Source: Fulvimarina manganoxydans (GTDB taxonomy: Bacteria > Pseudomonadota > Alphaproteobacteria > Rhizobiales > Rhizobiaceae). From it: DNA of 55,095 nucleotides. The notes under the pieces are model-generated. The model saw nothing but the letters and a program-made list of their open reading frames with translations. It ran no database searches and was not told the DNA's origin. The position numbers and the translations under genes are program-made. Shown one piece after another: positions 1,958 through 44,400 of this stretch; positions within the stretch are counted from its first letter, which is position 1; each line of letters opens with the position of its first letter. The stretch lies in assembly GCF_900176465.1 (NCBI RefSeq), contig NZ_FWXR01000028.1:1-55095 (forward strand), written 5' to 3'.

Positions 1958-4052
1958 ATGGACCGTGCAGCTCGGCGGTGTTCGCTCGTAGCCATTCTCG
2001 CGCTTGGGGTCGCTGAAATAGGGGCCCCTGGGAGCGCGGTTGCGCAAGAGGCGCAGACGATCGAACTCGATACGGTGATGGTGACGGGAGATCGGTTTGG
2101 TCGTCTCCTGTCGGATACCTATCAATCGGTGACCGTGATCGAAGCGACGACCGTCGAACGCGAGGCGATGCGCCCGCTCACCAGCCTCATCGCCGAAACG
2201 CCCAACGCCTATGTCCAGAGCCAGAGCGAGCTGCCGACGATCCGCGGCGTCCAGGGGGGTGGTGCCGGAGGACTCGCATCGGGCTTGACCACCGGCGCCC
2301 TTCCGCGCCTGCCTGTGATCGTCGACGGGATCGCCCGCGCCGCCAGCGTCCCGAACGGCAACTACGACACGCTTTGGGATGTCGAGCGCGTGGAGGTGTT
2401 GCGCGGCCCCCAGACGCTTCTGCGCGGTCGTAACGGCATCGCCGGCGCGGTGATCGTCGACACCTATGCGCCGAGCTTCACGCCGGAGGCGGCCTATCAG
2501 GCGGGCCTTTCCGTCAATCGGATCAACGGTCCGCAATATATCGCCAACGGCATGGTCTCGGGGCCGTTGACCGACAACATCGCCGGGCGTCTCACCGTGG
2601 AATATGCGGGCGGCGACGATCCGAGAGAGATCATCGGAGGCGAGGCCGACTTTATCACCGAATACGAAAAACTGCGTCTGCGCGGAAAGCTGCTTGGCGA
2701 GTTCGAAACGACGCTCGGGGGACTCACGATCGAGCTCTTGGGCGATTATCAGACAGGCCAGATCCCGCAGACCCGATCCAATGTCCTCGCTTCGTCGGTG
2801 TCGGGGCGCGATCTGGAGGATCGGGTGTTTGCGTTCAACGGGCCCGACCCGGGCCTTCGATACGGATGCCTTCACCATCGGCGGCAAAGCCTCGCTCGAT
2901 ATCGGCCTCGACGGGCGCCTGTCACTTCAGTCGAGCTATGTCAACGATCGCTATGAGAGCGTGAAGGAGCAGGTCTTTCCGAGCTTCTTCGACGTGGACG
3001 AGGACTTAATCGCCAATGAGCTCGTCTATGAATTCGGACCGAGTGGGCGCGTGAAGGCGGGAGAAGTGGCCGGCCTGGTCGGGCTCGGCTCGGAGGAAAG
3101 GCGGCAGGATGTGCGCCTGACCGGCACGCTGGCCACCACGATCGACGTCTCGACCTCGTCGCAATCCGCCTTCACGGATCTGCGCTATGGTTTGACCGAC
3201 AGCGTGTCGCTGCTCGGGGGTTTGCGCATCCAGCGGGTCGATGACGAGCGGGTCCAATCCTCCCGAGTCGGGCCCGTGTCGGGAGAAAGCCTTTACGATA
3301 AGGACGAAACCGTCCTTCTGCCGAGCCTCGGCGTCGCCTATGCGTTCGACGAGCTTCACAGTATCGGCGTCAGCCTGCGCCGTGGATACAATCCCGGCGG
3401 TGGCTCGGTCAATTTCTTCACCGGCCAACCCTACGTATACGATTCGGAGACCGTCTGGACCGCCGAAGCGACCTATCGCGGCCTGTTCTTCGACGAGCGC
3501 CTGTCGATCGGGCTCACCGGCTTCTACAACCTCCACGACAATCCGCAAGTCTATGGCGAGCAGGTGCCGGGCGACCGCCGCTCGCTCCAGATCGTCAATC
3601 AGGAACGTGGACGCTCCTACGGGCTGGAGCTTGAAGGCGCGCTGGAGGCGACCGATCGTTTGACGCTGACCGCCGGTCTCGGCCTGCTCCGCACGGAGAT
3701 CACCGAGGCCGATCCGCAAACGGCCCTCATCGAGGGCAATCGCTTCGGGCAGGACCCGAGCCTCACCGCCTCGATCGGCGGTGTGTGGACCGCTTACGAC
3801 TGGCTCTCGCTCGACGCCAAGCTGCGCTATGCCGCTTCCGCCTTCAACGACTTCAACAATGTCGCGGCGGACCGTCTGGACGCTTATGCCCTCGTGGACA
3901 TCGGCGCTACGGCGAAATTCGGCCATGTCGACCTTCGGGCCTATGTCAACAACGTCTTCGACGAGACCGCCGTGACCCGCCGCGTGACGGGCGGTTTCGT
4001 CGACGTGACAGACCCGCTGACCGCCGGCCTGACAATGACGGCGCGGTTCTGA
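1958..4052 (+). pseudogene. TonB-dependent siderophore receptor, one frameshift
   Basis: Outer-membrane receptor that would import a ferri-siderophore using TonB energy. The reading starts with a signal peptide (about residues 1-30, ending AVAQ), then a TonB-box-like stretch (DTVMVTG), a plug domain (about 45-165, with the VERVEVLRGPQTLLRGRN signature) and a 22-strand-type barrel ending in an aromatic residue (MTARF). Frame 2 carries the gene to about 2849, and the barrel continues in frame 3 from about 2850 (RAFDTDAFTIGG). One extra base in the CCCGACCCGGGCC run explains the shift. Joined, the product is about 697 residues, normal for the family. Apart from this shift both halves read cleanly, so it is either a recent mutation or a sequencing error in a GC homopolymer run. 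Confidence 0.85.
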
Positions 4053-7736: not shown

Positions 7737-7963
7737 CGAGGACGTCCCAATAGGCCGCCGCGCCCTTCCATTCGCAGATGGAGCTTCCCGATGCTTGGCG
7801 GATGGCTGGTCTCGAGGGCGCGGACGGTGCGGCGGCTGTCGGCGATCCGGCGCCCACGATCCTCGATGACGATTTGAGCCGCCGTCCGCTCGGCGATGGC
7901 GGGCCTCGGAAACGACCAGACGCTCTCTTGGCCCGCGGACGTGGGTTCAGCTGTCGGTCTCAT
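7737..7963 (-). pseudogene. DUF427-domain protein, truncated by IS6 copy B
   Basis: The start ATG at 7963 overlaps the stop of the DCC-family gene upstream (ATGA), so the two formed an operon. The frame gives ESVWSFPRPAIAERTA and RTVRALETSHPP, the hallmarks of DUF427. After that, a deletion of about 20 codons with a frame change leads to SICEWKGAAAYWDVLVG, the conserved centre of the same domain, and the sequence then runs into the IS6 end at 7734. The C-terminal half is lost. The function of DUF427 is not well known. Confidence 0.75.
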
Positions 7964-8322
7964 ACGCGCTCCAAACGACGAACGAGCGATTGCAGCATGG
8001 GGCGTGCTCTGAGGAAGGCGCGATAGAGCCGGTCGAGCAAATCCAAGGCGCGCGGCCCGCGACAGACGAGCCCGAGCGGGCGAAGAAGCGGAATTGCCCG
8101 CCAGACGGCGGCAAAGGCTTCGGCGCCGCTCATCACCTTCCCATTCTCCTCGGCATGGAAGCGGGCGAGCAGCTCGCCCTTGTCGAGCGGGCAGGCTGCC
8201 GGCTCGGCCTGTTCGAGATTGACGAAACGGATCGCACCCCGGCGATCGAGGCGGCGCATCAGCGCAATCTCCCGTAGACATAAAGGGCACGACCCATCGT
8301 ACCAGACCGTCAGCTTTTGCAT
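7960..8322 (-). CDS. DCC-family thiol-disulfide oxidoreductase (DUF393)
   Basis: 120 residues with the family signature at the N-terminus: VWYDGSCPLCLREI, where D9, C12 and C15 give the D-x-x-C-P-L-C motif that names the family (a CxxC redox pair). The start at 8322 places this motif at the usual distance from Met; the same frame stays open upstream to 8571, but that extension is not conserved in character and is probably not translated. Members are small cytoplasmic redox proteins of poorly known partner. The gene is followed with a 4-bp overlap by a DUF427 gene that has been destroyed, so this protein now stands alone. Confidence 0.8.
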   Translation of the reverse strand: MQKLTVWYDGSCPLCLREIALMRRLDRRGAIRFVNLEQAEPAACPLDKGELLARFHAEENGKVMSGAEAFAAVWRAIPLLRPLGLVCRGPRALDLLDRLYRAFLRARPMLQSLVRRLERV

Positions 8323-8723
8323 CGGCTGAAGATGGTGCGCCGCGCGCGCAAAGTCGCGCCTCGCAACCTGCGGCACATCGCACCAGGGAAGTTGGATCGC
8401 GCCCCTTCCACACCGCAACAGTCGCTCATGTTCTCGCAATGGCTTCACGGCCAAAGGGAAAGGCTTTGGCCTCCCTCCTTCCGAGAAAGGTCGTCCATCC
8501 TTCCCGCCGACTGCCGCAAACCATCGCGAAAGACGCTCACAGGACGATGGCCGATCGAATGCCCCTGTCATTCAAGGCACTTGTCCGTCAGTACCTAAAC
8601 CATGAGTGGAGACAGAGCGGGTCCCCCGTTCTGCTGCTGGTCCAGGCCTCCGAAGACGAAAAATTCAGCTAACTCTTACTTCATATCATGCGTCCATCCT
8701 GTCGACTGCCGCGGGAGAACAGC
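8323..8723. other. intergenic region between divergent genes
   Basis: About 400 bp between the DCC gene (leftward) and the GGDEF-EAL gene (rightward). It should hold both promoters. No clear operator, terminator or small gene is visible; the open frames here look like chance. Confidence 0.4.
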
Positions 8724-10664
8724 ATGACCCTTGTAAAAAAGCTCCTTGACTGGCTGGCCCTGCGGTCTGTCGAACCGGGACTTGCCCAAGCACAGTATCG
8801 CCAGCTTCAACGTCAGATCCCACTTCTTTACGCCCTCCTCAGCGTGAATGCGGTGGCCGTTGCCTTCACCCATCACGGGACGGCACCCGTCTGGATGACT
8901 TTCTGGATTCCTGGGCTTCTCGTCGCAGTGAGCGCCATAAGGCTCTTGATGTGGCTCAGGAGCCCGTCTGCCCTCGTGACGGATATGGAGGCCCTGCGTC
9001 ACCTCCGGCGGACGACGATCCTCGGCGCGGTCATCTCGCTCGCCTATATCTGCTGGTCTTTGAAGATCGGCGAATACGGCAACGAGCACCAACAGGCTCA
9101 TGTCGCCATTTTCATCGCCATCACGGTCATCGGATGCATCTTCTGCCTCATGCATCTACCGCAGGCAGCCTTTACGGTGACCGCGATCGTCACCCTGCCC
9201 TATCTGGCCTATTACGTCTCCCCAGACGATGCGGTCTTTACGGCGGTCGGCTTGAACATCCTGCTCGTCACGCTCGTCATGATCCGCGTGCTGCTCAATA
9301 GTTTCGACGGCTTCAGCAAGCTGATCCGCACGCAGATCGAAACCGAACGCCTCAACAAGGAGATCACCAAGCTCGCTCATACCGATATGCTGACGGGGCT
9401 GCCGAACAGGCGCCTTTTCTTTTCAGAAGCCGATGCCAGCATCGGGCGATGCCGGCGCGAGGGGCGCCCGCTCGCTCTCGGCGTCATCGACCTCGATCGC
9501 TTCAAGGCGGCCAACGACACCTTCGGTCACCTGTTCGGAGACCAGCTTCTCGAAGCGGTCGGCGCGCGTCTGACCGAGGTTTTCGAGGGCCATGGTCTCG
9601 TCGCCCGTTTGGGCGGCGACGAATTCGGCTTCATCCTTGAGGCAGAGGAGAGCGTCGTCGCCGATCTTGCTGCCCGGGCGTGCCAGCGCCTTGCTGAGCC
9701 ATTCCTCCTGGAAGAGGTGCGGGTATCCATCGGCGCCTCCTGTGGCATCGCCTCGATCAGGGACATCCCTGGCAGCTCCCGCGCGCTCTATGACGGCGCC
9801 GATTATGCGCTCTATAAGAGCAAGAGCGAGCGCCGCGGCTTCGCAACGCTCTATTCGCCCGAGCACGAGCGGAGCATTCGCTCGGAGCGCGCCATCGAAG
9901 CCGCGCTTCAGGTTGCCGATCTTCAGAACGAGATGACCGTCCATCTCCAGCCGATCGCGAGCCTCAACGGGGACGCCGTCTGCGCCTTCGAGGCGCTGGC
10001 GCGCTGGACCAGCCCGCAGCTCGGCTCCGTGCGGCCGGACATCTTCATCCCGCTTGCCGAGCGCACCGGCATCATGCATCGCCTCACCCTGACTCTTCTC
10101 GAAAAGGCCCTGACCACTCTCAAGCACGTTCCGGGCGAGACCCGGCTCTCCTTCAATCTGTCGGCCCATGACATCACTTGCACCGAGACAATCGTCGCGA
10201 TCACATCCCTCGTGACGACATCGGGGATCGACCCCTCACGCCTCGTCCTGGAGCTGACGGAAACGGCGGTGGTTCGCGACTTCACCGCCGCGCAAGCCTC
10301 GATCCGGCTCCTGCGCGCCCTCGGGATCAAGATCGCGCTCGATGATTTCGGCACCGGTCAGTCGAGCCTCAGCTATCTGCGCCGCTTGCCGATCGACCTG
10401 GTGAAGATCGACAGGAGCTTTGTCGCCGGCGCCGAGGAGCCGAAAGGCCGTGACCTCCTTTGCGCGATCGTGGCGTTCTGCAAATCCATGGGCATGAAAT
10501 GCGTCGCGGAAGGGGTCGAGACCGCCTCGCAACTGCATTTGCTGCGATCGATCGGCTGCGACGAGTACCAAGGCTATCTCCTTGCCAAGCCCATGCCGAT
10601 CGATGAGTTGATGCTATGGGAGGACAGCCGCGTCCAACCGCAGTGGCTCAGCCGGTCGGCTTGA
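8724..10664 (+). CDS. membrane-bound GGDEF-EAL protein (cyclic di-GMP turnover)
   Basis: 646 residues. The ATG at 8724 follows GGGAGA and was preferred to an upstream in-frame codon at 8688. About six hydrophobic segments (residues 30-205) anchor an N-terminal sensor region. Next comes a GGDEF domain (about 230-390) with an intact RLGGDEFG active site (cyclase), then an EAL domain (about 405-640) with FEALARW and LDDFGTGQSSLSYLRRLPID, which include the metal-binding residues of an active phosphodiesterase. The RxxD inhibition site normally five residues before GGDEF is absent (EGHG there), so product feedback on the cyclase is unlikely. Which activity dominates cannot be told from sequence. 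No neighbour suggests the signal sensed. Confidence 0.9.
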   Translation: MTLVKKLLDWLALRSVEPGLAQAQYRQLQRQIPLLYALLSVNAVAVAFTHHGTAPVWMTFWIPGLLVAVSAIRLLMWLRSPSALVTDMEALRHLRRTTILGAVISLAYICWSLKIGEYGNEHQQAHVAIFIAITVIGCIFCLMHLPQAAFTVTAIVTLPYLAYYVSPDDAVFTAVGLNILLVTLVMIRVLLNSFDGFSKLIRTQIETERLNKEITKLAHTDMLTGLPNRRLFFSEADASIGRCRREGRPLALGVIDLDRFKAANDTFGHLFGDQLLEAVGARLTEVFEGHGLVARLGGDEFGFILEAEESVVADLAARACQRLAEPFLLEEVRVSIGASCGIASIRDIPGSSRALYDGADYALYKSKSERRGFATLYSPEHERSIRSERAIEAALQVADLQNEMTVHLQPIASLNGDAVCAFEALARWTSPQLGSVRPDIFIPLAERTGIMHRLTLTLLEKALTTLKHVPGETRLSFNLSAHDITCTETIVAITSLVTTSGIDPSRLVLELTETAVVRDFTAAQASIRLLRALGIKIALDDFGTGQSSLSYLRRLPIDLVKIDRSFVAGAEEPKGRDLLCAIVAFCKSMGMKCVAEGVETASQLHLLRSIGCDEYQGYLLAKPMPIDELMLWEDSRVQPQWLSRSA

Positions 10665-10761: not shown

Positions 10762-10777
10762 GTTGACAGCTGCCAAC
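10762..10777. promoter_or_regulatory. parS centromere site 2
   Basis: GTTGACAGCTGCCAAC matches the repABC parS consensus GTTNNCNGCNNNNAAC. It differs by one base from the perfect palindrome inside repA at 13512-13527. It lies 100 bp downstream of the third gene of the replication cassette, so the two sites bracket the cassette. RepB is the expected ligand. Confidence 0.8.
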
Positions 10778-10834
10778 GCTCGGAAGCATCCACAATCCGC
10801 CCAAGCAAAAGCCGCACCGTCTCATTGAAGAAGG

Positions 10835-10850
10835 CGCTCAAGGGTGAGCG
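10835..10850. terminator. hairpin downstream of the rep cassette
   Basis: CGCTCA and TGAGCG form a perfect 6-bp stem with an AGGG loop, 28 bp after the stop of the last (leftward) rep gene. On the leftward strand the stem is followed by CCTTCTTC rather than a clean T-run, so it is at best a weak intrinsic terminator. Confidence 0.3.
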
Positions 10851-10877
10851 ATGTCGAATGGACGCCTTAGAGGGCGG

Positions 10878-11861
10878 TTAGCTGGGCCCTATGAGCGCCG
10901 CGCCGTGGTAATTCTCATGGGCATTTTGGAATCTATAAGAGGAATCATTATCGGTTTGGTTTTTGGATGACAGAACTGTCATACCCTTCTCATCTCGCAA
11001 CCCTGCAACCCGTACCGTCCTGCTCCCTGTCGCAAACGGCAGGAAGGGCTTTGCAAGGGCGCTTTCTCCCAGCCAGCGAGCAAGGCCCTTGGGTTCGGTG
11101 AAGAAGGGCATCACCGCTTCCGTGATCTCGATCACGAGGCCGGTGTGAAACCCCCTCGCTGTGCGCCGGATTTCGGTGACGATATAGCCGAAGCGTTCCA
11201 GATCGCCGAGATAGCGGCGGATCGTGCGGGTCGAGCGGCTCATGATCGCCGCAAGCGTTCCTTTAGCCGCTTCGGTGCGCCGTCCCTTGCCGCAGCGCGC
11301 GCGTAAGACGACGAGCAGGGCCCGTGCGCCCGGCGTCAGCCGATCGTCACGCAGCGCGGTCGTCGCCATCGGATTGGCATATTGGCGCGAGGCATTGGGC
11401 GCCGGGCGGCTGTGGCGCGGCCGGGCGACAGGCGGACGCGGAGCCCCCTTCCCCGAAGCGATCGGGCGTTGCGGCTTTTCCGGCTGCAGCGCGCCGATCT
11501 TGGCCGAGCGGCGCTGGGCCTCGGCAAAGGATATCAGTCCTTCGCGAAACTCGCGCCAGATCGCGGCCTTCGCCTCGAAGCTCGGCGCGGCCTGACGGCG
11601 CGCGGTCTCGGCGACCTCGATCGCGAAAAGGTCCGGCTCGCCGGTGCCCTCATGCGCCGGTCCGGCTGAAGCCATAGCGTCCGCGGCCGGTGAAAAACCC
11701 GCTCCTGCGAGACCCTGGCGCCTCGTCAAATCCGTCGAGGCCGCCGGGCTACGCGGTTCGATCGCAGCGCTCTTCAAGCCAAGCCCTATCGGCCGCTCGC
11801 CCCTCAAAATCGGGTCGAACGTTCCTCGTGCGCCAGGCGCACCTCTCCTGTCGTCCGTCAC
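10878..11861 (-). CDS. winged-helix protein in the repC position, candidate replication initiator
   Basis: 327 residues from a GTG at 11861 that has AAGGAAGG five bases upstream; the frame is open to a TTG at 11885, which has no such site. The first 165 residues are basic, proline-rich and probably disordered. Residues 165-260 read as a winged helix-turn-helix (LTPGARALLVVLRARC, then SRSTRTIRRYLGDLERFGYI). This does not look like RepC, which is about 400 residues and carries a different N-terminal winged helix (RP-C domain). Its position after repA and repB, with a counter-transcribed RNA just upstream, is exactly that of repC, so I infer a replication initiator or a replication control protein. 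The 3' end of the gene is unusually AT-rich. Confidence 0.6.
   Translation of the reverse strand: MTDDRRGAPGARGTFDPILRGERPIGLGLKSAAIEPRSPAASTDLTRRQGLAGAGFSPAADAMASAGPAHEGTGEPDLFAIEVAETARRQAAPSFEAKAAIWREFREGLISFAEAQRRSAKIGALQPEKPQRPIASGKGAPRPPVARPRHSRPAPNASRQYANPMATTALRDDRLTPGARALLVVLRARCGKGRRTEAAKGTLAAIMSRSTRTIRRYLGDLERFGYIVTEIRRTARGFHTGLVIEITEAVMPFFTEPKGLARWLGESALAKPFLPFATGSRTVRVAGLRDEKGMTVLSSKNQTDNDSSYRFQNAHENYHGAALIGPS
10905..10985. other. AT-rich tract at the end of the repC-position gene, oriV candidate
   Basis: About 80 bp with clearly more A and T than the surrounding sequence, encoding an Asn/Ser-rich tail. In repABC plasmids the origin of replication lies in an AT-rich part of repC, so this is the best origin candidate in the cassette. 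I see no iteron array. Confidence 0.35.
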
Positions 11862-11917
11862 GTCGTCCTTCCTTGCGCGAGGCAAACGAAGGCCGTGGCG
11901 GGAAACCGCATTTATCG

Positions 11918-11946
11918 TTGACGAGTGAGTCGGAAGAACCTAAGTC
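11918..11946 (+). promoter_or_regulatory. promoter of the counter-transcribed RNA
   Basis: TTGACG (11918-11923) and TAAGTC (11941-11946) with a 17-bp spacer form a good sigma-70-type promoter reading rightwards, against the rep operon, just upstream of a short terminated transcript. Confidence 0.6.
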
Positions 11947-11952
11947 AGAGGT

Positions 11953-12007
11953 GTCTAGTCTTTGAGAAGGTCCTGCAAGCGGCTCCCGCTTCGGGGCCTT
12001 TTTCTTT
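11953..12007 (+). ncRNA. antisense (counter-transcribed) RNA between repB and the repC-position gene
   Basis: A transcript of about 50 nt is predicted from the promoter at 11918-11946 to an intrinsic terminator ending in the T-run at 11999-12007. It lies in the 206-bp gap between repB and the third gene, antisense to the operon mRNA. In repABC replicons a small RNA of this size, place and orientation pairs with the mRNA leader and blocks repC translation, setting copy number and incompatibility. The same role is inferred here, although the third gene is not a typical repC. Confidence 0.6.
11969..12007 (+). terminator. intrinsic terminator of the antisense RNA
   Basis: The inner stem AAGCGG/CCGCTT (loop CTC) is extended by an outer stem GGTCC/GGGCC, and TTTTTCTTT follows. 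The inner stem is perfect, and the T-run starts right after the outer stem. Confidence 0.7.
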
Positions 12008-12067
12008 GCCTATGGCGTCTCCTGGCATTGTCGTTTCATGGGTGAAATCCGGACGGGGAGGGGCCTT

Positions 12068-13285
12068 TCAGCCGCCCGCATCCGCCTCTTCGTCCTCGCT
12101 TGGCGCTCTGTCTGCGGCGCCTTCGGCGAGGAACGTCTCATAGAGACCGGGCAAGCGGTCGGCGACGAAACGGGCGAAATCCGCCCCGTCATCGGTCGCA
12201 AAGGCAAGGCTCATGCGCTTCTTCTCCCCCCGCTTCATCACCGCAAGGGTGGCGCCACCTGCGCCTTTGACCGCTTCTTCACCTGCCCTCCCCGCGCTTG
12301 CTGCCGGCCCATGCATGCGTTTCAAAAGCGCGCGGAACCGGGCATCAGAATCGGCGATCGCGGAAAAGCTTTCGCGGGAGATGAATTCGAAGGCCCGATC
12401 GCTTGCGCCCCGGCGCATCATCAACTCGCCAAGCTCGCCCCAGCGCGGCCGCCCCACTTTGGGCGCCGGGCCGATGGCGGCGGCGATCGCCTGGGGAATT
12501 CGGCTTGCCACTTGAAGAAGGCGGGTGAGCTCGGTCTTGTCGACGCCGATCGCCGCCCCGATCGTCTCGCGGGAAAAGCCGGCGCCTTCGAGCCCCTTGG
12601 CGAAGAAGGCGCGCTCGATGAAGCTCAAGTCCCGGCGTTCGGCATTTTCGCGCCCCTGCGCGAGGATCAGCTCCTCGTCGCTCAAAGGGCGCACGATGGC
12701 GCGTACGCGAAGGCCGAGCTCGCGGGCCGCGCGCACCCGTCGATGACCATAGGCCGTCTCGTAATAGCCCTCGGCCCGTTTGGCCTCGTCGGCATGGGGC
12801 CGCAGAAGCACCGGCACGGTCTGACCACCAGCCGATATCGAGGCCTTCAGCGCCTCGAAGCCCGCATCGAGATCGCCCGAGCGCGACAGCCGGTCGGTGA
12901 CGGGGGAGGGGAGGATGAGATCGGGATCGACGAGCACCACGCGCCCACCCGTCGCCGCCTCCGCCCGCAGCGCCTTGGCGGCCTCCGCCTCGCGCGCCAT
13001 CTCGCCCCAGGACTGGCGCATGGCATTGATCGCTCCTGAGCGCACATGCTCGCCGGAGCGGGGGAGGGCGGTCGTGGTCGTCTCAGGGGAGGAGTCAGAC
13101 GCAGCATCCTCCGGCATGGCCAAGGCTGTCGCCTTCTCCGCGTTGTCCTGTAGGCTTGGGCTTGGCGCGGGCACGCCCTCTGCCGGTTTGCCAGAAGAGG
13201 CCGGCCCAGTCTCGGCGTCCGGCTCGCTCGCAGACGAAGAGCTACCCGAAAGAAGCGCCCGGAGGGCATCCTTGCGTTTTACCAT
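12068..13285 (-). CDS. repB: plasmid partition protein RepB (ParB family)
   Basis: 405 residues. The ATG at 13285 has AGGAGG eight bases upstream and opens with VKRKDALRALLSG, the usual basic start of RepB; a longer frame from 13330 lacks this. Residues 110-220 form the ParB nucleotide-binding region (PVLLRPH, then ETAYGHRRVRAARELGLRV, with the GHRR box). A central helix-turn-helix follows (SRETIGAAIGVDKTELTRLLQVA) that should bind parS. The N-terminal 90 residues are Ser/Glu/Pro-rich. It binds the two parS sites seen at 13512 and 10762 and works with RepA to place plasmid copies in daughter cells. The gap to repA is 181 bp, which is long for an operon of this kind. Confidence 0.92.
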   Translation of the reverse strand: MVKRKDALRALLSGSSSSASEPDAETGPASSGKPAEGVPAPSPSLQDNAEKATALAMPEDAASDSSPETTTTALPRSGEHVRSGAINAMRQSWGEMAREAEAAKALRAEAATGGRVVLVDPDLILPSPVTDRLSRSGDLDAGFEALKASISAGGQTVPVLLRPHADEAKRAEGYYETAYGHRRVRAARELGLRVRAIVRPLSDEELILAQGRENAERRDLSFIERAFFAKGLEGAGFSRETIGAAIGVDKTELTRLLQVASRIPQAIAAAIGPAPKVGRPRWGELGELMMRRGASDRAFEFISRESFSAIADSDARFRALLKRMHGPAASAGRAGEEAVKGAGGATLAVMKRGEKKRMSLAFATDDGADFARFVADRLPGLYETFLAEGAADRAPSEDEEADAGG

Positions 13286-13466
13286 GGCGAGGCCTCCTGT
13301 CCGCTCGATTCCCATTTCGTCCCCCAACACGGCGCCAAGAATGAGCCAATGCGTGGGGAGGGGGGAAATCTCGGATGGGATTTTTTTGGTCTTGAGACCC
13401 GGGCGATCGTCGCCGCACAGGGCTCATTCCTTGAGATAAAACGGATTTCCGCTCTTGCGCCCTCTC

Positions 13467-14708
13467 TCATGATCGCCCCCAGGCCGCCCGAAGCAGCGCT
13501 TCGATTTCCCCGTTGACAGCTGTCAACGACTCCATGGCTCGGTCATAGGTGCCGCGCGAAAAGTTCTCCCGGCCGACCTCGTAAAGGGTCTGTTTGGTGA
13601 GACCGGCATCGGACACGGCCGTCGATTTCAGCATGGCATTGGTCAGCACCCGCTCGCCGAACTGGGCGCGCAGAAAGCCGGTGATCTGGGCCTGCGGCCC
13701 GTCATGGGGCTCGTAGCGGGTGACGAGATAGCGCAGAAAATCGAAATTGAGCGAGGCGCCCGCCTCCCGCACGACGCTGAGGAGGTCGGCAGTCATGAAC
13801 AGGAACTGGCTCATGGAGGCGACATCCAGCATCTGCGGATGGACGGTGACGAGAACGGAGGTCGCGGCGCAGAGCGCACCGAGGGTCAGAAAGCCGAGCT
13901 GCGGCGGGCAGTCGATCACCACCACGTCGAAGTCCTCCGCCACCTCCTCGACCGCCGCCCCGAGCCGGGCAAAGAAGGGCATGTCGCCCGCCGTCCCATG
14001 TTCGGCGAGCTGGCGCGGCGTCGTGTGCTCGAATTCCTGAAGCTCCAGATTGCCCGGCACGAGGGAGAGCCCGTCGAAATAGGTGGGCCGGACGATCTCT
14101 TTCAGCGGGCGCCGCTGATCGTCATAGCGGATCGCGCCATAGAGCGTGTCGTTGCCGGTCAGATCGAGTTCCGGCTGATAGCCGAGAAGGGCGGAGAAGG
14201 AGGCCTGGGGATCGAGATCGATGCCAAGCGTGCGATAGCCTTCGAGCGCGAGATATTGGGCGAGATGGGCCGCCGTCGTGGTCTTGCCCGAGCCGCCCTT
14301 GAAATTGGTGACGGCGATGACCTGGAGATGCTCGCCGCGTTGAGGGTCGCGCCATTTCAGATATTGGCGCGCCTTGGCACCGCCGGCCTCGTGCTGGCCG
14401 GCGAGATGGGCGCGAAGGGCGTTGATCGTCTCCAGCGTATAGGAGCGCCGGCCATTGGCCTGGGTTTCGGGCTGCGGCCCGTCGCCGGACAAGGAGAGCT
14501 GGCGCAGATAGCCGTCGGAGACGCCGATCAGCTTGGCCGCCTCGCCGGAGGTGAAGGCCCGCAACGCCTTCTTGGCCGAGGGCGGAAACAGCCGCTCGCG
14601 CATGGCCGAGAGCTGGCTCGACAACAGCTCGGCATCCCTGGCAATCTGTTCGTCGGCCTGCGCCACCGGCCTCATCTCCGCAACCATGGGTCCTCGCGTC
14701 TCCTCCAT
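13467..14708 (-). CDS. repA: plasmid partition ATPase RepA (ParA family)
   Basis: 413 residues, normal for RepA. Residues 50-105 hold an N-terminal helix-turn-helix (TSGEAAKLIGVSDGYLRQLS), used in known RepA proteins for repression of their own operon. The Walker A motif FKGGSGKTT is at about 136-144, with the deviant lysine of ParA proteins; DLDPQASFSALLG follows, and VVVIDCPPQLG is the Walker B-like segment. The start at 14708 follows AGGATGGTCAGGG; a second ATG at 14687 is possible. A parS palindrome lies inside the 3' end of the coding sequence, spelling SLTAVN in the protein. Confidence 0.93.
   Translation of the reverse strand: MEETRGPMVAEMRPVAQADEQIARDAELLSSQLSAMRERLFPPSAKKALRAFTSGEAAKLIGVSDGYLRQLSLSGDGPQPETQANGRRSYTLETINALRAHLAGQHEAGGAKARQYLKWRDPQRGEHLQVIAVTNFKGGSGKTTTAAHLAQYLALEGYRTLGIDLDPQASFSALLGYQPELDLTGNDTLYGAIRYDDQRRPLKEIVRPTYFDGLSLVPGNLELQEFEHTTPRQLAEHGTAGDMPFFARLGAAVEEVAEDFDVVVIDCPPQLGFLTLGALCAATSVLVTVHPQMLDVASMSQFLFMTADLLSVVREAGASLNFDFLRYLVTRYEPHDGPQAQITGFLRAQFGERVLTNAMLKSTAVSDAGLTKQTLYEVGRENFSRGTYDRAMESLTAVNGEIEALLRAAWGRS
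13512..13527. promoter_or_regulatory. parS centromere site 1 (inside repA)
   Basis: GTTGACAGCTGTCAAC is a perfect 16-bp palindrome and fits the repABC parS consensus GTTNNCNGCNNNNAAC at every fixed position. It is embedded in the last 20 codons of repA. RepB is the expected ligand. Confidence 0.88.
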
Positions 14709-15208: not shown

Positions 15209-15877
15209 ATGGAGATCATGGGCCATCATCGACCATCGAAGGGCAGAGAGGACGGGGGCGGCATGGCGGTCACCCGGCGGAGCTTTCTCGGCGGAACCGC
15301 GACCGCCGGCGCTTCGGCGCTCGCCGGCGTTGCCGGCGCGGCGCGCCAGGCGATTGCCCAGGAGGTGGACGATGCCGGCGGCGAGAGCGTCGATGTCAGC
15401 CTCGTCATCAATGGCGTCACCTATGAGCGCCGTCTCGACACGCGCACCAGCCTTCTCGACCTTCTGCGGGAGGAACTCGACCTCACCGGCACCAAGGTCG
15501 GCTGCAATCACGGCCAATGCGGCGCCTGCACCGTTCTGATGAACGGCACGCGCATCAATTCCTGTCTGACGCTCGCGGCCATGGCCGATGGCGCCCGCAT
15601 CACCACGATCGAAGGGGTGGCGAGCGCCGAGGGTGAGCTTCATCCGATGCAGGCGGCCTTTCTCGAACATGACGGCTTTCAATGCGGCTATTGCACGCCG
15701 GGCCAGATCGTCTCGGCGATCGGCTGCGTGAAGGAGGGCCATGCCACGAGCGAGGCCGAGATCCGCGAATATATGTCCGGAAATCTCTGCCGTTGCGGAG
15801 CCTATAAGGGCATTACCGAGGCCATCATGGAGGCCCGCGAGGCGACGCACTCAAGCGAAGTCGGAGGTCAGTCGTGA
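15209..15877 (+). CDS. paoA: aldehyde dehydrogenase iron-sulfur subunit PaoA, Tat-exported
   Basis: 222 residues. A twin-arginine signal (TRRSFLGG, about residues 22-29, with a hydrophobic stretch to about 50) marks export of a folded cofactor protein. Eight cysteines bind two [2Fe-2S] clusters: C99, C104, C107 and C119 in the plant-ferredoxin-like part, and C159, C162, C194 and C196 in the alpha-helical part (QCGYCTPGQ, LCRCGAYKGI). This is the layout of E. coli PaoA (YagT), the small subunit of the periplasmic PaoABC aldehyde oxidoreductase. The ATG at 15209 follows GCAAGGG; ATGs at 15218 and 15263 are alternatives. The stop overlaps the paoB GTG start by four bases. Confidence 0.9.
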   Translation: MEIMGHHRPSKGREDGGGMAVTRRSFLGGTATAGASALAGVAGAARQAIAQEVDDAGGESVDVSLVINGVTYERRLDTRTSLLDLLREELDLTGTKVGCNHGQCGACTVLMNGTRINSCLTLAAMADGARITTIEGVASAEGELHPMQAAFLEHDGFQCGYCTPGQIVSAIGCVKEGHATSEAEIREYMSGNLCRCGAYKGITEAIMEAREATHSSEVGGQS

Positions 15878-16908
15878 AGCCCTTCCGCTACCAAGCACCA
15901 AGCTCCGTCGATGCCGCCGTCGAGGCGGTCGAGCCCATGGGTGTCCCTGGCCAGGGCGGGGCGTTCCTTGCCGGCGGCACGACGCTGATCGACCTCATGA
16001 AGCTCAGTGTGGCCACGCCGCCAAGCGTCACCGACATCAAGAATCTGAGCCTCGACGGGATCGAGGAGGCCGATGGCGAGGTCCGCGTCGGCGCCCGGGT
16101 CACCATGGCCGAGGCCGCCAGCCATCCGATCTTTCTCGACCGCGCACCAGTTCTCTCCGACGCGCTCTGGAAGGCGGCGAGCCCGCAGCTGCGCAATGTG
16201 GCGACGCTCGGCGGAAACATCCTTCAGCGCACGCGCTGCCCCTATTTCCGCGACAATGTCAGCCCCTGCAACAAGCGCGATCCGGGCTCCGGCTGCGCGG
16301 CGATCGGCGGCATCAACCGCCTCCTCGCCGTGCTCGGCACGTCGGAAAGCTGCATCGCGACCTATGCCGGCGACTTCGCCAATGCGCTGATCCTGTTTGA
16401 TACGACGGTCGAGACCCATCGCGCCGCGGAAGGCCCGCGCCAGATCGAGCTTGAGGACCTGCATGTCCTGCCCGAGGATCACCCCGAGCGCGAGACGGTG
16501 CTTGCCGATGACGAGCTGATCACCGGCTATCGCTTTCGCCTGCCCGATTGGGCGCGCCGGTCGGTCTATGTGAAGGCGCGCGACCGGGAATCCTATGCCT
16601 TCGCGCTCGCCTCCGCCGCCGTCGCCCTCGATCTCGACGGCGAGACGATCCGCGAGGCGCGGATCGGTCTCGGTGGCGTCGCCACCGTGCCCTGGCGGGC
16701 GCGGGAGGCGGAAGACTTTCTGAAAGGCAAGACGGTGAGCGAGGAGACCGGGCTTCAAGCCGGGCGCATCGCCTTCGAAAGCGCCCAAGGCTACGAGCAC
16801 AACGCCTTCAAGATCCCGCTCGGGCGGCAGGTCGTCGCGAAAGCGATCTTCGATGCCGCGCGCAAGGATGTCTCCGGTTCCGCCGGACAGTCGGAAGGAG
16901 CCAACTGA
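15874..16908 (+). CDS. paoB: aldehyde dehydrogenase FAD subunit PaoB
   Basis: 344 residues, GTG start overlapping the paoA stop (GTGA). It belongs to the xanthine-dehydrogenase FAD-binding family: the FLAGGTTLIDLMKL segment near residue 31 is the FAD loop. An insert with C122, C132, C141 and C160 (TRCPYFRDNVSPCNKRD, GSGCAAIGG) matches the place where PaoB carries an extra [4Fe-4S] cluster, a trait that separates PaoABC from ordinary xanthine dehydrogenases. It passes electrons from the iron-sulfur clusters to the final acceptor. Confidence 0.9.
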   Translation: MKPFRYQAPSSVDAAVEAVEPMGVPGQGGAFLAGGTTLIDLMKLSVATPPSVTDIKNLSLDGIEEADGEVRVGARVTMAEAASHPIFLDRAPVLSDALWKAASPQLRNVATLGGNILQRTRCPYFRDNVSPCNKRDPGSGCAAIGGINRLLAVLGTSESCIATYAGDFANALILFDTTVETHRAAEGPRQIELEDLHVLPEDHPERETVLADDELITGYRFRLPDWARRSVYVKARDRESYAFALASAAVALDLDGETIREARIGLGGVATVPWRAREAEDFLKGKTVSEETGLQAGRIAFESAQGYEHNAFKIPLGRQVVAKAIFDAARKDVSGSAGQSEGAN

Positions 16909-19166
16909 TGGCCGACGACAGGATGACTTTCGAAGCAACGCCCACCATGGACATCGAGACCCAGGACAAGGTGGAAAGCGCCGAGCGCGCGGCCGAGAAC
17001 GGCAATGTCGGCGCGGCGCTGAGCCGGGTCGACGGGCCGCTCAAGGTGACCGGCCAGGCGCGCTATGCCGCCGACTTCGCCGTGCCCAATCCGCTCTATG
17101 CCCATCTCGTCATCTCGACGGTCGGCAAGGGACGCATCACCGCCATCAAGGACGAAGCGGCGCGCAAGGTGAAGGGCGTGCGCGCCATCTACAGCCATGC
17201 CAACAAGCTCGACAGCGGATCGGCGAAATTCTTCGCCGCCGGCGGCCAGGCCCAGCAGAGCTGGGAGCCCTTCGCCGAGCCGGATGTGCGCTTTTATGGC
17301 GAGACGGTGGGCCTCGTCGTCGCCGAAACGATCCTCGCCGCGCGGGAAGCGGCCGCCGCGCTCTCCTTCGACTATGAGACAAGCGATCCGGCCGCCGTCT
17401 TCGGGGCCGATGGCGTCGAGCGGCAGGATATGCCCGACAAGACGATCACCAAGGGCGACTTTACGAGCGCGTTCGAGGCCGCGCCGGTCAAGATCGCCTC
17501 GGATTACGAGACGGCGCCCAATGTCCACAACGCCATGGAGCTTTTCGCGACCACGGCCCATTGGGTGGGCGACAAGCTGACCGTCTATGTGCCGAGCCAG
17601 TGGGTGAAGGGGTTCCAGATCGGGCTTGCCGAGGAGCTCGGCATCGACGAAGCCAATATCGAAATCGTCTGCCCTTTTGTCGGCGGCGGCTTCGGCGGCA
17701 AGGGTTCGCTGTTCACCTGGGTCTCGCTGATCGCGGCCGCCTCGCGCGAGCTTGGCCGCCCGGTGAAGCTCTATGTCACCCGCGAACAGGGTTTCACCAC
17801 CGCCTCCTTCCGGGCCGAGACCCGGCAGCGGGTTCGCCTGGGGGCCGGCGAGGACGGCCGGTTTCAGGCGCTGGAACATGCCGGCGAAGAGCTGACCTCG
17901 CGGGCCGACAATTATTTCGTCAACGGTCAGGAAGCGACCGTGCGCATGTATCAGGCCGACGCGATCCGCACCGAGCTGGCCACCATTCACGCCGATCGCC
18001 AGACGCCGGGCTTCATGCGGGCCCCGGCTGAGACGCCCTATTTCTTCGGGTTGGAATCGGCCGTCGACGAGATCGCCCGCGAGCTCTCCATGGATCCGGT
18101 CGAACTCCGCATCAAGAACGACACCATGGTCGATCCGGTGGACGGCGTGCCCTACACCTCGCGCTCGCTGAAAGAGTGCTTCCGTCAGGGCGGCGAGGCT
18201 TTTGGCTGGTCGAACTATACGCCCGAAATCGGCTCGATGAACGAAGACGAATGGCTGATCGGCTGGGGCGTTGCGACCTCCACCTATCCGACGCAGATGT
18301 CGCCCTGCACGGTGCGCATCCATCTCGACGTGACCGGCGAGGCGCGGCTGCAGGTTGCAAGCCATGATCTCGGCACAGGCGCCTATACGGTGCTGACCCA
18401 GGCGGTGGCCGAGGAACTCGGCATCGAGCCCTCCCAGGTGCGGGTCGAACTCGGCGATTCCCGCCTGCCGCCCGGCACGATCGCCGGCGGCTCGATCACC
18501 ACCGCCTCCAACGTCTCGGCGATCATGATCGCCTGCGAGCGCATCCGCAATCGGCTCGGGATCGAGAAGGGTTCGGACACCGATCTTGCCGCCGCCTTCG
18601 ATCGCTTCGGCCAGGCGGGCATCGAGGAATACGCCGAATGGACGCCGCCCGGCGCCAAGAAGGACGCGCCGAAGACGCTCTATAACGGCAAGGTCAAGAT
18701 CGTCGGCGGACCGGAGGAGGATTATACCGCTTTCGCCTTCGGCGCGATCTTCTCCGAGGTGCGGATCAACAAATACACCCGCGAAATCCGGGTGCCGCGC
18801 ATGACCGGGGCCTTTGCCGCCGGGCGGATCATGAATGCCAAGACGGCCAAGAGCCAGTATCTCGGCGGCATGGTCTGGGGCATCGGCCACGCTCTGCACG
18901 AGGTCGCCGAGGTCGATCCGCGCACCGGTGCCTATATGAACGACAACATCTCCGAATATCTCGTGCCGGTGAATGCCGACGTTCCCAACATGGATGCGAT
19001 CATCGTGCCGGAGGTGGACGACAAGGTGAACCCCGCCGGCGTCAAGGGCATCGGCGAGATCGGCATTGTGGGTGTCGCCGCCTCGATCGCCAATGCGGTC
19101 CATCACGCAACGGGCAAGCGATTGCGCCGCATTCCCATCCGGCTCGACGATCTGGTCGACGTCTGA
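16908..19166 (+). CDS. paoC: aldehyde dehydrogenase molybdenum-cofactor subunit PaoC
   Basis: 752 residues; the ATG at 16908 overlaps the paoB stop (TGATG) and follows GGAAGGAG. This is the large catalytic subunit of the molybdenum hydroxylase family. GGGFGGKGS near residue 262 and FMRAPAETP near 369 contact the molybdopterin cofactor, and GIGEIGIVG holds the catalytic glutamate (Glu717). In E. coli PaoABC oxidises aromatic and other aldehydes to acids in the periplasm, probably for detoxification, and needs the chaperone PaoD for cofactor insertion; no paoD is in this window. No signal peptide here, as expected for a subunit carried out with the Tat-tagged PaoA. The aldehyde substrate is unknown. 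Confidence 0.9.
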   Translation: MADDRMTFEATPTMDIETQDKVESAERAAENGNVGAALSRVDGPLKVTGQARYAADFAVPNPLYAHLVISTVGKGRITAIKDEAARKVKGVRAIYSHANKLDSGSAKFFAAGGQAQQSWEPFAEPDVRFYGETVGLVVAETILAAREAAAALSFDYETSDPAAVFGADGVERQDMPDKTITKGDFTSAFEAAPVKIASDYETAPNVHNAMELFATTAHWVGDKLTVYVPSQWVKGFQIGLAEELGIDEANIEIVCPFVGGGFGGKGSLFTWVSLIAAASRELGRPVKLYVTREQGFTTASFRAETRQRVRLGAGEDGRFQALEHAGEELTSRADNYFVNGQEATVRMYQADAIRTELATIHADRQTPGFMRAPAETPYFFGLESAVDEIARELSMDPVELRIKNDTMVDPVDGVPYTSRSLKECFRQGGEAFGWSNYTPEIGSMNEDEWLIGWGVATSTYPTQMSPCTVRIHLDVTGEARLQVASHDLGTGAYTVLTQAVAEELGIEPSQVRVELGDSRLPPGTIAGGSITTASNVSAIMIACERIRNRLGIEKGSDTDLAAAFDRFGQAGIEEYAEWTPPGAKKDAPKTLYNGKVKIVGGPEEDYTAFAFGAIFSEVRINKYTREIRVPRMTGAFAAGRIMNAKTAKSQYLGGMVWGIGHALHEVAEVDPRTGAYMNDNISEYLVPVNADVPNMDAIIVPEVDDKVNPAGVKGIGEIGIVGVAASIANAVHHATGKRLRRIPIRLDDLVDV

Positions 19167-41467: not shown

Positions 41468-44400
41468 TCAGATCAGGAACTGCCAGGCTTCGGCCCCGAG
41501 GCTGTGATCGGTCTTCATTTCGAGCGAATGGGCGAACCGGTCGGCGATGTCCTTGAGGCTCATGCCCTCGTCGAGCGCCTGCTGCCAGAAGTCGAAGCCC
41601 GCCCTGTCCGAATTCCGATCGAACAGCACCTCGTAGAGAAGCTCCAGGCTCGCCTCGCCATTCGGCCCGAAATGGGTGAAGCCCTGGGCTTGTGCCTCCT
41701 CTGAGGCGAAAACGTCGAGCATGACGTCTCCAGCGCTGCCGCCATCGGCCAGGCGCTTGGTCCAGAACTGGACGCCGGCGAGATCGCCCTGGCGGCCGAA
41801 GAGTTGCTGATAGAGCCCTGCCACCAGGGAGAGATCGTCCTCATAAGACAGCTCGATCGTCTTGTCGGCGAAGGTGATCGTCTCGACATTGACCAAAGTG
41901 TCGACATCGGTCGGATCGGACAGGGAGCGCACCGTCACCACGGCATGATCCCGGGTGATCTCGTAACCGGCGGCCTGGCCCTCATAGGTGACCGTGTCAT
42001 GGTCGCGGCCGCCATGGATCAGATCGGCGCCCTCGCCGCCGAACATGGTGTCGTTGCCCCCCTCGCCGAACAGCCGGTCGTCACCGCCCTCGGAGCCGAC
42101 GATGTCGTCACCGCCGCCGCCATGCAGTTCGTCGTCGTCCGCGCCGAGCACGATCCTCTGCGCCCCGTCGTCGGCGAAGATGATCTGGGCGCCGGCGCCA
42201 CCGGTCAGAGAGACATTGCCGACCACGGCCGCGAAGCTGATGTCGTTGAGCTCCAGAACGGTTCCGGCGGGCAGGTTCGAGCTATCGATCACGATCGCGG
42301 TCGCCGTCGTGGCATCGCCGTCTCCCGGACCGCTGATGACCAGCGGAACATTCGGATCGGCGCCTTCGGCGATCGTCGGGGTGATGGTCAGGACCGCCAG
42401 CGGCTTGTCTGCCGGCAAGGCACTCAGAAAGCCCTTTCCGCCCCCCGTCAGCGCCGTCTGGACGTCGGAGCCCTCGGCGGTGTGGGCCTTGATCTGAGCG
42501 ATCAGCCCGTCGAGGCCGGTCGCCACCGTTTGCGCAGCGCCCGTGCCGGACGCCGTCATGCCGACGCCGGTCGGCACCTTGACGCTGATCAGCGGCGTCT
42601 CGCCCGTTTTCACCAGCGGGATATCGGCAAGAGCATTGCCGCCGACCGATTCCTGCCGATCCGCCTTGACGGTCGGAATAGTCGTCGTGGTGACGGTTCC
42701 GCCATTCGCGCCGGTCTTCGTTTCGGTCTGAACGGACACGCCATCGACCGTATCGGTCTTCGTGTCGCCGGTACCCCCGCCGCCGGAGCTCGGCGCCTGG
42801 GTGGTGTTTGTCACCACCTTGTCGACGAAACTTGCGAGGTCGTTGCCCGCAAGATCCTGGATCACGCCGTTCGCGTCGTCGGCGCTCGTCAGATCGGTAT
42901 AACTGACAGTCACCTTCTGCCCGGCGGAGACCGGGGAGGCAAGGGTCAGGGTCGCGATCTTGGTCAAGGCATCGATAGCCACCGTATCGATAATAGCGGG
43001 CTTGTCCCCGACCTTCACGGAGAAGACCTTCGCTGCAGGCGCGCCGCTATCCAAGCCCCCGCTATCGGCGAGGGTGATCGTCAGGGTTTTCCCATCGACC
43101 TTCATGGCCGACATGGTGGGCGTCGTGGTGTCGAGCGCATAGGCATGGCTGTAGACGGTTGCGTCGTTTCCGGCGGTGTCGGAGACCTTCACCTTCAGCG
43201 TGCCGGAACCGATCAGCGTCTGGCCGACGAGCGACCAGTTTTTCTGGGCGATATCACATGCGGCGGTGGCCCATGTCTTGCCGTCGTCAAGCGAGACCTG
43301 GACCTTTTCTCCGCTCGCCAGATTGGCCGAGAGCGTGCCGCTGATCGTCTGATTGGCCGTCTGGGTGACGAAGTCCTTATCGGACGAACCGGTATCGGCC
43401 GAAAAACTCGCCGCCGCGATCGTCGTCGTCGGCGCCGTGGTGTCGATCGCGATCGCCTTGTTGGCGCCGAGGGAGGTCGTGCTGCCGGGTATTGCGAGCG
43501 TCAGATTTGCGTTCAAGCCGCCGGCGTCCTGAATGGAACCGCCATTGAGCACGAGCGCGGCCGTGCCAAGATAATCCAGATCCGAGCTCGTATCACCGTC
43601 TTGGACTTTGTAGACGAAGGTCAGCGTGTCGGTTCCCGAACCGCTGACATAATCGACCACCCGGTCTGTCGTCCCGGTTTCGAGCTTGAGATTCGGCGTG
43701 CCGCTCACATTGACGACTTTGGAGAACTGGACCTGGATCGAGATGTCGTCGCCGACCTTATAGGCGCCATTGGCGGTGGAGGACGTCACGCCCGTCACCT
43801 TCGGCGGTGCATCCAATGTGATCAACGTGTCCGCGCCGCCATTCGTGGACGTCACTGCAAAAATGGCGTCGGCAAGGTTCGGTGCGTTGAGCGTCACTTC
43901 GGGCGTGGTGAAGTCGGTGGCGTCGGTATCGATCTCGATCTTTGTGTCGGAACCGGTGCCAGTGACACGAATGTTCGCGGCCGTGAGCGACGTGATGCCG
44001 GTAAGCTGTATGGCGTCGCCGGCTTCCAGATCGGTGATGGTATCGCCGTTCAAATCCGAGACGCTGCCGGCGAAGACGTCGTCGCCCGCGCCGCCGGTAA
44101 GGGTGTCTGCGCCAGCGCCGCCGGCAATGGTGTCGTCGCCCGCACCGCCTTTGATATTATCGACGCCGGCGCTGCCGATGACGGTCATGCCGCCGCCGGT
44201 GATTTCGTCAAGATCTACGGAGTTACTCTCTATGATAGATAATGTATCTTTAGACAGATCAATGGTTCGCAAACCCTGCGCATAGGCTTTGGCATTGAAC
44301 GACAACGACACCGGGGACGAGGTGGAACTTAGGGCGATCCGCTCTATTCCACTGATCCGGCTGGACCAGTCGATGTTCGACCCGAAGATGAAACCGTTCG

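Follow-up and report, generated by a model that had tools for sequence, protein, structure and literature searches.

The stretch of DNA analyzed here, hereafter the window, comprises positions 1 to 55,095 of contig NZ_FWXR01000028.1 of Fulvimarina manganoxydans and contains what we read as the locus for replication and partition of a low-copy plasmid. The genes repA and repB are followed by a third gene, whose product we call RepX (a working name). To judge by its sequence, the locus is a recurring variant of the repABC cassette that lacks RP-C and has another winged-helix protein under a repC-type leader. RepX is likely to be a replication initiator under antisense-RNA control of the repC type, a role that we infer from its position, the repC-type antisense-RNA leader, the mutual exclusion of RepX and RP-C, and the lack of four other initiator families. 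The cassette thus points to a hitherto undescribed kind of control over plasmid replication. The initial annotation of this region had reported a repAB cassette with a non-RepC third gene and with the other repABC parts (gene order, parS sites, antisense RNA) in place, and both observations are confirmed. On the minus strand the order is repA, repB, a gap of about 200 bp and the third gene, with the following features:

10762-10777, no strand: parS site GTTGACAGCTGCCAAC, about 100 bp beyond the RepX stop codon.
10878-11861, minus strand: RepX (third gene), 327 amino acids (aa), probable initiator in the repC position, with a low-confidence head, two helices and a winged helix (PF13730, 1.9e-5; phrog_270, 7e-7; alignment A2; structure models).
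10900-10999, no strand: A+T-rich 3' end of RepX, 43% GC versus about 65% for the gene; candidate part of the origin (oriV).
10968-10981, no strand: palindrome TGACAGAACTGTCA (TGACA-N4-TGTCA), candidate initiator-binding site.
11862-12009, minus strand: RepX mRNA leader with a short hairpin GCGGTTTCCCGC at 11898-11909 (by eye); attenuator-like and homologous to the repC leader.
11918-11946, plus strand: putative promoter of the antisense RNA (TTGACG, 17-nt spacer, TAAGTC), found by eye.
11950-12005, plus strand: antisense RNA (counter-transcribed RNA, ctRNA) with terminator hairpin GGCTCCCGCTTCGGGGCC and a T-run; both ends are predicted from the sequence.
12068-13330, minus strand: repB, ParB-type centromere-binding protein (TIGR03454 E 4.5e-95; PF07506 3.8e-24).
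13467-14708, minus strand: repA, 413 aa, ParA-type partition ATPase (TIGR03453 E 2.8e-188, 625.6 bits).
13512-13527, no strand: parS site GTTGACAGCTGTCAAC, within the 3' end of repA.

Both RepA and RepB score above the NCBIfam equivalog cut-offs for the repABC partition families and are, as first annotated, clear members of this system. The repB open reading frame (ORF) that starts with GTG is 420 aa long, and the true start is probably an ATG near 13285. The two parS sites also stand, as only 0.01 matches are expected by chance in the 55-kb window (up to two mismatches permitted). Sites of this type lie 140-270 bp beyond RepX in three further loci as well (L028, L029, L037).

RepX starts with a GTG at 11861, preceded by the ribosome-binding site AAGGAAG, and the start has the same position in relatives. 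The profile search against RP-C and other initiators that had been proposed for this protein returned only two Pfam matches, HTH_36 (1.9e-5, narrowly short of its cut-off, at residues 182-235 of a longer reading from a TTG) and HTH_11 (0.0013). No RP-C match was listed up to E 10, as expected from the first reading of the gene, and a search of NCBIfam gave nothing beyond one match at 0.25. The conserved core corresponds to window residues 95-276 or so and contains the motifs RDDRLTP-like and RS.R-I-RY. Among the PHROGs, the winged helix is nearest to phrog_270, ‘replication initiation protein’ (E 7e-7 for the window, 5e-7 for Maritalea, 1.4e-6 for G051, and a weaker 0.006 for pAU20b and G022:C10), with a match that is restricted to this domain. 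By sequence, the winged helix of RepX thus resembles replication-initiation families. The full-length AlphaFold model is poor (mean predicted local distance difference test score, pLDDT, 48.9), while the core is modeled as a winged helix with a pLDDT of 70, confidence being confined to this core. The initial annotation described a 327-residue winged-helix protein with a long disordered head; length and helix-turn-helix hold, and for the head (residues 1-82) a pLDDT below 50 fits disorder but is no proof of it. A Foldseek search with the core model gave 1793 matches, three of them at E ≤0.001, to generic winged helices. No solved structure matched RepX by sequence at E ≤0.001; the best of the three matches listed, a riboflavin kinase, has an E of 0.035.

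RepX recurs in 19 distinct loci, near-identical records being counted once and two weak matches (G122 and G356, from the sample of 385 genomes described below) being left out. The named hosts are Fulvimarina, Jiella, Aurantimonas, Aureimonas and Maritalea. With tblastn, RepX was located once in each of six closed plasmids, of which four belong to Aureimonas sp. AU20 and one each to Jiella pelagia and Maritalea. We also searched 121 genomes with a single protein (own genome included; up to 17 candidates scored per genome). Six genomes matched, and five of them, with ten places, were retained; the match in G047 was dropped as a chance match, since its ORF reads by eye as an unrelated enzyme. GTDB contigs hold seven RepX loci, in Fulvimarina pelagi, a Fulvimarina metagenome-assembled genome, Jiella pacifica (two contigs), Jiella avicenniae, Aurantimonas and, again, the J. 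pelagia plasmid, and IMG/VR holds one contig with RepX (L071). In a class-wide sample of 385 genomes (up to six candidates scored per genome) only three, the own genome included, have a RepX match; the family therefore looks narrow. There is one RepX per replicon, as the six plasmid records have six places and the two or three copies in each of the genomes G000 (F. manganoxydans), G002 and G022 are on separate contigs.

The arrangement of RepX relative to repAB (ARRANGEMENTS) differs among these loci. RepX follows repA-repB in seven distinct loci (the window, pAU20b, J. avicenniae, J. pacifica NODE_33, G002:C1, G022:C10 and G022:C9) and is divergent from repAB in four (F. pelagi, the near-identical group L024-L027, G002:C3 and G022:C17). 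In pAU20c, pAU20e, pAU20g, Maritalea, G000:C29, G002:C4, G051:C26 and L071 there is no repAB in the flanks examined, and an ORF with a ParA-like Walker motif was found near RepX in four of them (G002:C4, pAU20e, pAU20g and L071). Since RepX also occurs without repAB, the unit is RepX and not repAB-RepX. The repAB cassette of the initial annotation is real but was too narrow a frame for a module that consists of RepX and its antisense-RNA leader.

Two of the loci without repAB deserve a description of their own. The second RepX of the own genome (L030 8729-9616, G000:C29) has a full leader and lies on a contig of 152 kb. Within a few kb of it are ORFs that resemble, by eye, a conjugative relaxase (1318 aa) and a TraD-like coupling protein, and other parts of this contig have copper-resistance-like and cytochrome oxidase-like ORFs. 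The IMG/VR ‘viral’ contig L071 encodes a RepX, its leader and a ParA-like ORF that closely resembles the one on the 28-kb plasmid pAU20g (L040), so that either this contig is a plasmid or a phage-plasmid lineage uses RepX.

RepX and RP-C were not found together at any repAB locus. We collected 55 RepA loci above the family cut-off from 61 genomes (own genome included) and counted RP-C when it lay within 4 kb of RepA: RP-C accompanies 43 of them, RepX seven, both none and neither five. RepX lies within 2 kb of all seven RepA loci in the four RepX-bearing genomes of this set (G000, G001, G002 and G022; gaps of 555-1870 bp), and RP-C was not found in these four genomes. A true repC elsewhere on the replicon or a RepC match of the protein had been named beforehand as refuting the non-RepC cassette; the own assembly (54 contigs, 4.82 Mb, 98% complete) has no RP-C match at E 0.001, and the protein has no RepC match. 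In the three inspected of the five RepA loci with neither protein, there is no RepX and no meaningful leader match. One relative without an RP-C or RepX match, L139 (G028:C19), contains 14 copies of the parS-like palindrome GTTGTCAGCTGACAAC and its near variants between repA and repB (7758-9626; up to two mismatches, 0.02 expected).

On the six closed RepX plasmids we searched for four initiator families and found RP-C, Rep_3 and DnaA on none and RPA on one. Rep_3 (PF01051) is absent from all seven genomes or records, among which RPA (PF10134) occurs only on pAU20e and not in the own genome. Bac_DnaA (PF00308) has no match on the window contig or the six plasmids; its matches in the own genome are on C14 (a 505-aa frame, probably dnaA) and C29 (by eye an IstB-like insertion-sequence helper). 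No initiator family was found among the 39 other ORFs of the window that were scanned (Pfam, E 1e-4). The ORFs of 15209-19166, which look like a molybdenum dehydrogenase cluster when read by eye, and many short ORFs are outside this set of 39.

The leader provides the link to repC. About 150 nt before the RepX start can be aligned in 16 loci, with or without repAB, at a mean column identity of 78%. Read on the antisense strand, these leaders have a TTGAC -35 element that is invariant in 16 of 16, a head that varies between loci, and GGCTCCCGCTTCGGGGCC plus T as intrinsic terminator. In the window, the sequences TTGACG and TAAGTC (11918-11946) are what we take, from the hexamer consensus, to be the promoter elements. 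Together with L071, the conserved leader with antisense-RNA promoter and terminator is found in 17 of the 19 RepX loci. Five of the 16 antisense RNAs were folded and all fold better than shuffled sequences (z -2.7 to -3.1; window -2.7). The Rfam model ctRNA_p42d (RF00489) matches the window at 11965-12009 on the plus strand with 23.1 bits (E 0.12), and the leader of 11 of the 13 RepX loci searched with 22.9-32.5 bits, under the curated Rfam threshold of 50; elsewhere in those 13 sources it has no match up to E 2. The antisense RNA of the initial annotation is therefore upheld, as the match has the right place and strand though it is below threshold. Its predicted length fits the 55-59 nt given for repABC ctRNAs (PMC10194956).

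We also built a covariance model, R1, from RepX leaders only and ran it on 25 RP-C loci; its E values are rough. In ten of them it matches the repC leader over its full length, in register with its end at the repC start, and on the antisense strand (L057 at 3.7e-5, L063 at 8.6e-4, L053 at 0.005, L041, L052, L054, L062 and L042 at 0.01-0.05, L049 at 0.41 and L069 at 1.5). Misplaced or wrong-strand matches of similar score occur in L048 (0.024), L047 (0.042) and L066 (0.56), the remainder being weaker. R1 matches L071 with 126.6 bits and finds no RepX-type leader in the distant matches L073 and L074 (G122 and G356). By these sequence comparisons, the RepX leader is related to the leader between repB and repC. 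The RP-C repABC locus L057/L140 (G024:C3) has the leader that scores best against R1 among the 25 (26.3 bits) and is a possible intermediate.

Position and leader might also be explained if RepX were a RepC that has diverged past profile recognition, lost its C-terminal domain and still works as RepC. This explanation concerns descent and overlaps with the initiator role, which concerns function. It shares with the data the same gene position, a homologous leader, a winged helix that is followed by an A+T-rich coding stretch in both proteins, and helix-turn-helix recognition helices that align in hhalign (SRSTRTIRRYLGDLERFGYI of RepX with GMADATLRRHLSALIDAGLI of RepC). That alignment of 18 RepX with 16 RepC proteins, however, reaches a probability of 29% over only 28 columns, which is no more than a common helix-turn-helix would give and speaks neither for nor against membership; RP-C is not listed up to E 10, initiators of the PHROGs outscore RepC, and the A+T-rich stretch is in the middle of the gene in 16 of 16 RepC genes but terminal in RepX. 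We consider descent from RepC the less likely reading and lean towards replacement. Of the replicon class with a replaced initiator proposed at first, the recurring class without RepC stands, while the replacement itself is unproven because of the possibility of a very diverged RepC.

The low-GC stretch forms the final 100 bp or so of RepX. The palindrome TGACA-N4-TGTCA is present in a single copy in the 55-kb window, and 11 of 16 RepX loci have it once, at corresponding codons. Synonymous-codon identity at conserved residues is 0.80 in this tail (6 columns) and 0.51 in the core (86 columns), against 0.38 expected. An A+T-rich 3' end with a conserved palindrome would fit an origin within the gene, for which the GC skew (below) gives no clear support. 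In Rhizobium etli p42d, RepC is described as necessary and sufficient for replication, with oriV in or close to an A+T-rich part of repC (PMC3155836). Since the A+T peak is in mid-gene in the 16 RepC genes compared and terminal in RepX, the two layouts are alike but not identical.

Several results weigh against RepX as an initiator under repC-type control. Five of the 16 loci have variants in place of the exact palindrome, and the codon conservation of the tail (resampling P 0.0002) refers to a region picked post hoc and to six codon columns. R1 finds no in-register leader in 15 of the 25 RP-C loci, nor any leader in the RepX loci of Maritalea (L006) and G051 (L038). In five closed plasmids, GC skew fails to single out RepX as the origin. 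Only pAU20b has a significant amplitude (P 0.014). Its extremes are at 114 and 302 kb, with RepX at 3 kb, but the minimum is flat between about 0 and 155 kb, and RepX lies within this flat stretch. Amplitudes are not significant in the other four: in pAU20c the extreme closest to RepX is the maximum rather than the minimum (11.5 kb away); in the Jiella plasmid the extremes (139 and 71 kb) are both more than 40 kb from RepX at 30 kb; and the minima of Maritalea and pAU20g are close to RepX (7.9 and 1.5 kb away, respectively). Furthermore, pAU20e encodes a full RPA initiator in addition to RepX, so that RepX is not always the sole candidate, and a primase/polymerase gene is an alternative on pAU20g. 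MarR-type regulators dominate among the 50 Foldseek matches listed, which also suits a transcription factor.

RepX could accordingly be a regulator of plasmid copy number or transcription, the real initiator being an unrecognised gene elsewhere on each plasmid; the MarR-like winged helix, the separate RPA initiator of pAU20e and a GC skew that does not point to RepX all agree with this. A regulator of this kind would not explain the mutual exclusion with RP-C at repAB loci, the repC-type antisense-RNA control, the recurrence of RepX with unrelated partition genes, or the absence of the four initiator families from five of the six closed plasmids and of any initiator family from the 39 window ORFs scanned, and we regard it as distinctly improbable.

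With RepX as initiator, the locus would work as follows. RepA, RepB and the two parS sites segregate the plasmid, as family membership and sequence show. RepX may bind to the A+T-rich tail of its coding sequence, in or close to TGACA-N4-TGTCA, and open the DNA there. The antisense RNA of about 55 nt, directed against the RepX leader, would set the amount of RepX through attenuation like that of repABC and repC plasmids, a mechanism proposed by homology, and would thereby set copy number and incompatibility. RepX and its leader are a portable module, which is combined with repAB in some plasmids and with other ParA systems in others. A fuller and more tentative proposal, which we would place slightly short of evenly balanced, is a new replicon type whose winged-helix initiator is unrelated to RepC, took over the repC attenuator, has its origin, as RepC does, in its own coding sequence and moves with the leader as a module between partition systems, co-resident plasmids with nearly identical initiators evading incompatibility mainly by divergence of the antisense-RNA head.

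We compared identities of the core protein, leader flank and ctRNA head, in this order. For co-resident plasmids these are 93/91/54% (G002 C3/C4), 91/90/61% (G022 C10/C17), 89/89/85% (pAU20b/c) and 83/95/80% (pAU20e/g), and for J. avicenniae and J. pacifica, which are not co-resident, 85/99/93%. Divergence thus affects mainly the ctRNA head in two of the four close co-resident pairs. Over all pairs, the mean identity of the head is 0.61 in 13 co-resident pairs versus 0.55 in 107 others and is not lower when co-resident. These incompatibility signatures are mixed and post hoc and were therefore kept out of the main evidence.

The ends of the window contig have no overlap from which a circle could be concluded, and its other recognised genes encode mostly metabolic, regulatory or surface proteins (Pfam). 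Both points would suit a decayed or integrated remnant, on a contig that is no independent replicon and has kept repAB for stability. The ORFs, parS sites and leader are intact, though, and repA-repB-RepX is found on the closed circular plasmid pAU20b and RepX on five other closed plasmids, which makes a remnant very improbable. Two other genes of the window should be mentioned. A TonB-dependent receptor at 1958-4052 extends over two overlapping frames, with the Plug in the first and the barrel in the next, and so looks frameshifted. The 1816-aa protein encoded at 41468-46918 contains DUF4347, RTX calcium-binding repeats and DUF4214 and is probably a large secreted or surface protein.

Compared with the repABC system of R. 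etli p42d, the RepX cassette shares the order repA-repB-third gene, parS, an antisense RNA between repB and the third gene, a homologous leader and an A+T-rich stretch in the third gene. It differs in the third protein, which profiles do not recognise as RP-C and which is shorter with a long N-terminal head, and in the A+T-rich stretch, which lies at the end of the gene. RepX loci without repAB look like the repC modules of pRmeGR4a and pSmeLPU88b, which function with their ctRNA in the absence of repAB (PMC10194956, PMC2783167); those plasmids use RepC, whereas RepX has no RP-C match. The DnaA-like, RepA, RepB, RepQ, RepY and RepW plasmid types of Rhodobacterales are defined by their replicase (PMC9025767), as a RepX type would be. 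Profiles of RPA, Rep_3 and DnaA have no match on the window contig, however, and RepQ, RepY and RepW correspond to IncQ-like, RepL (PF05732) and Rep_1 (PF01446) proteins, none of which Pfam gives for RepX; the available text of PMC9025767 does not mention a repC-type ctRNA leader for these types. Phage replication initiation proteins (phrog_270) share the winged helix with RepX (E 7e-7), the likeness being limited to this domain. No account of a RepX replicon class was found in a search of an open-access library, mostly of titles and abstract openings.

Plasmids of the repABC family are possibly the commonest of Alphaproteobacteria (PMC2783167), and replicon classification rests on the initiator (PMC9025767). 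Among the six closed RepX plasmids, only pAU20e has a replicon type in PLSDB. If our reading is true, RepX would provide a replicon type for the other five, the cassette without RepC would show the control element as separable from the initiator, and this would suggest that an antisense-RNA attenuator can persist while the protein it controls changes beyond recognition.

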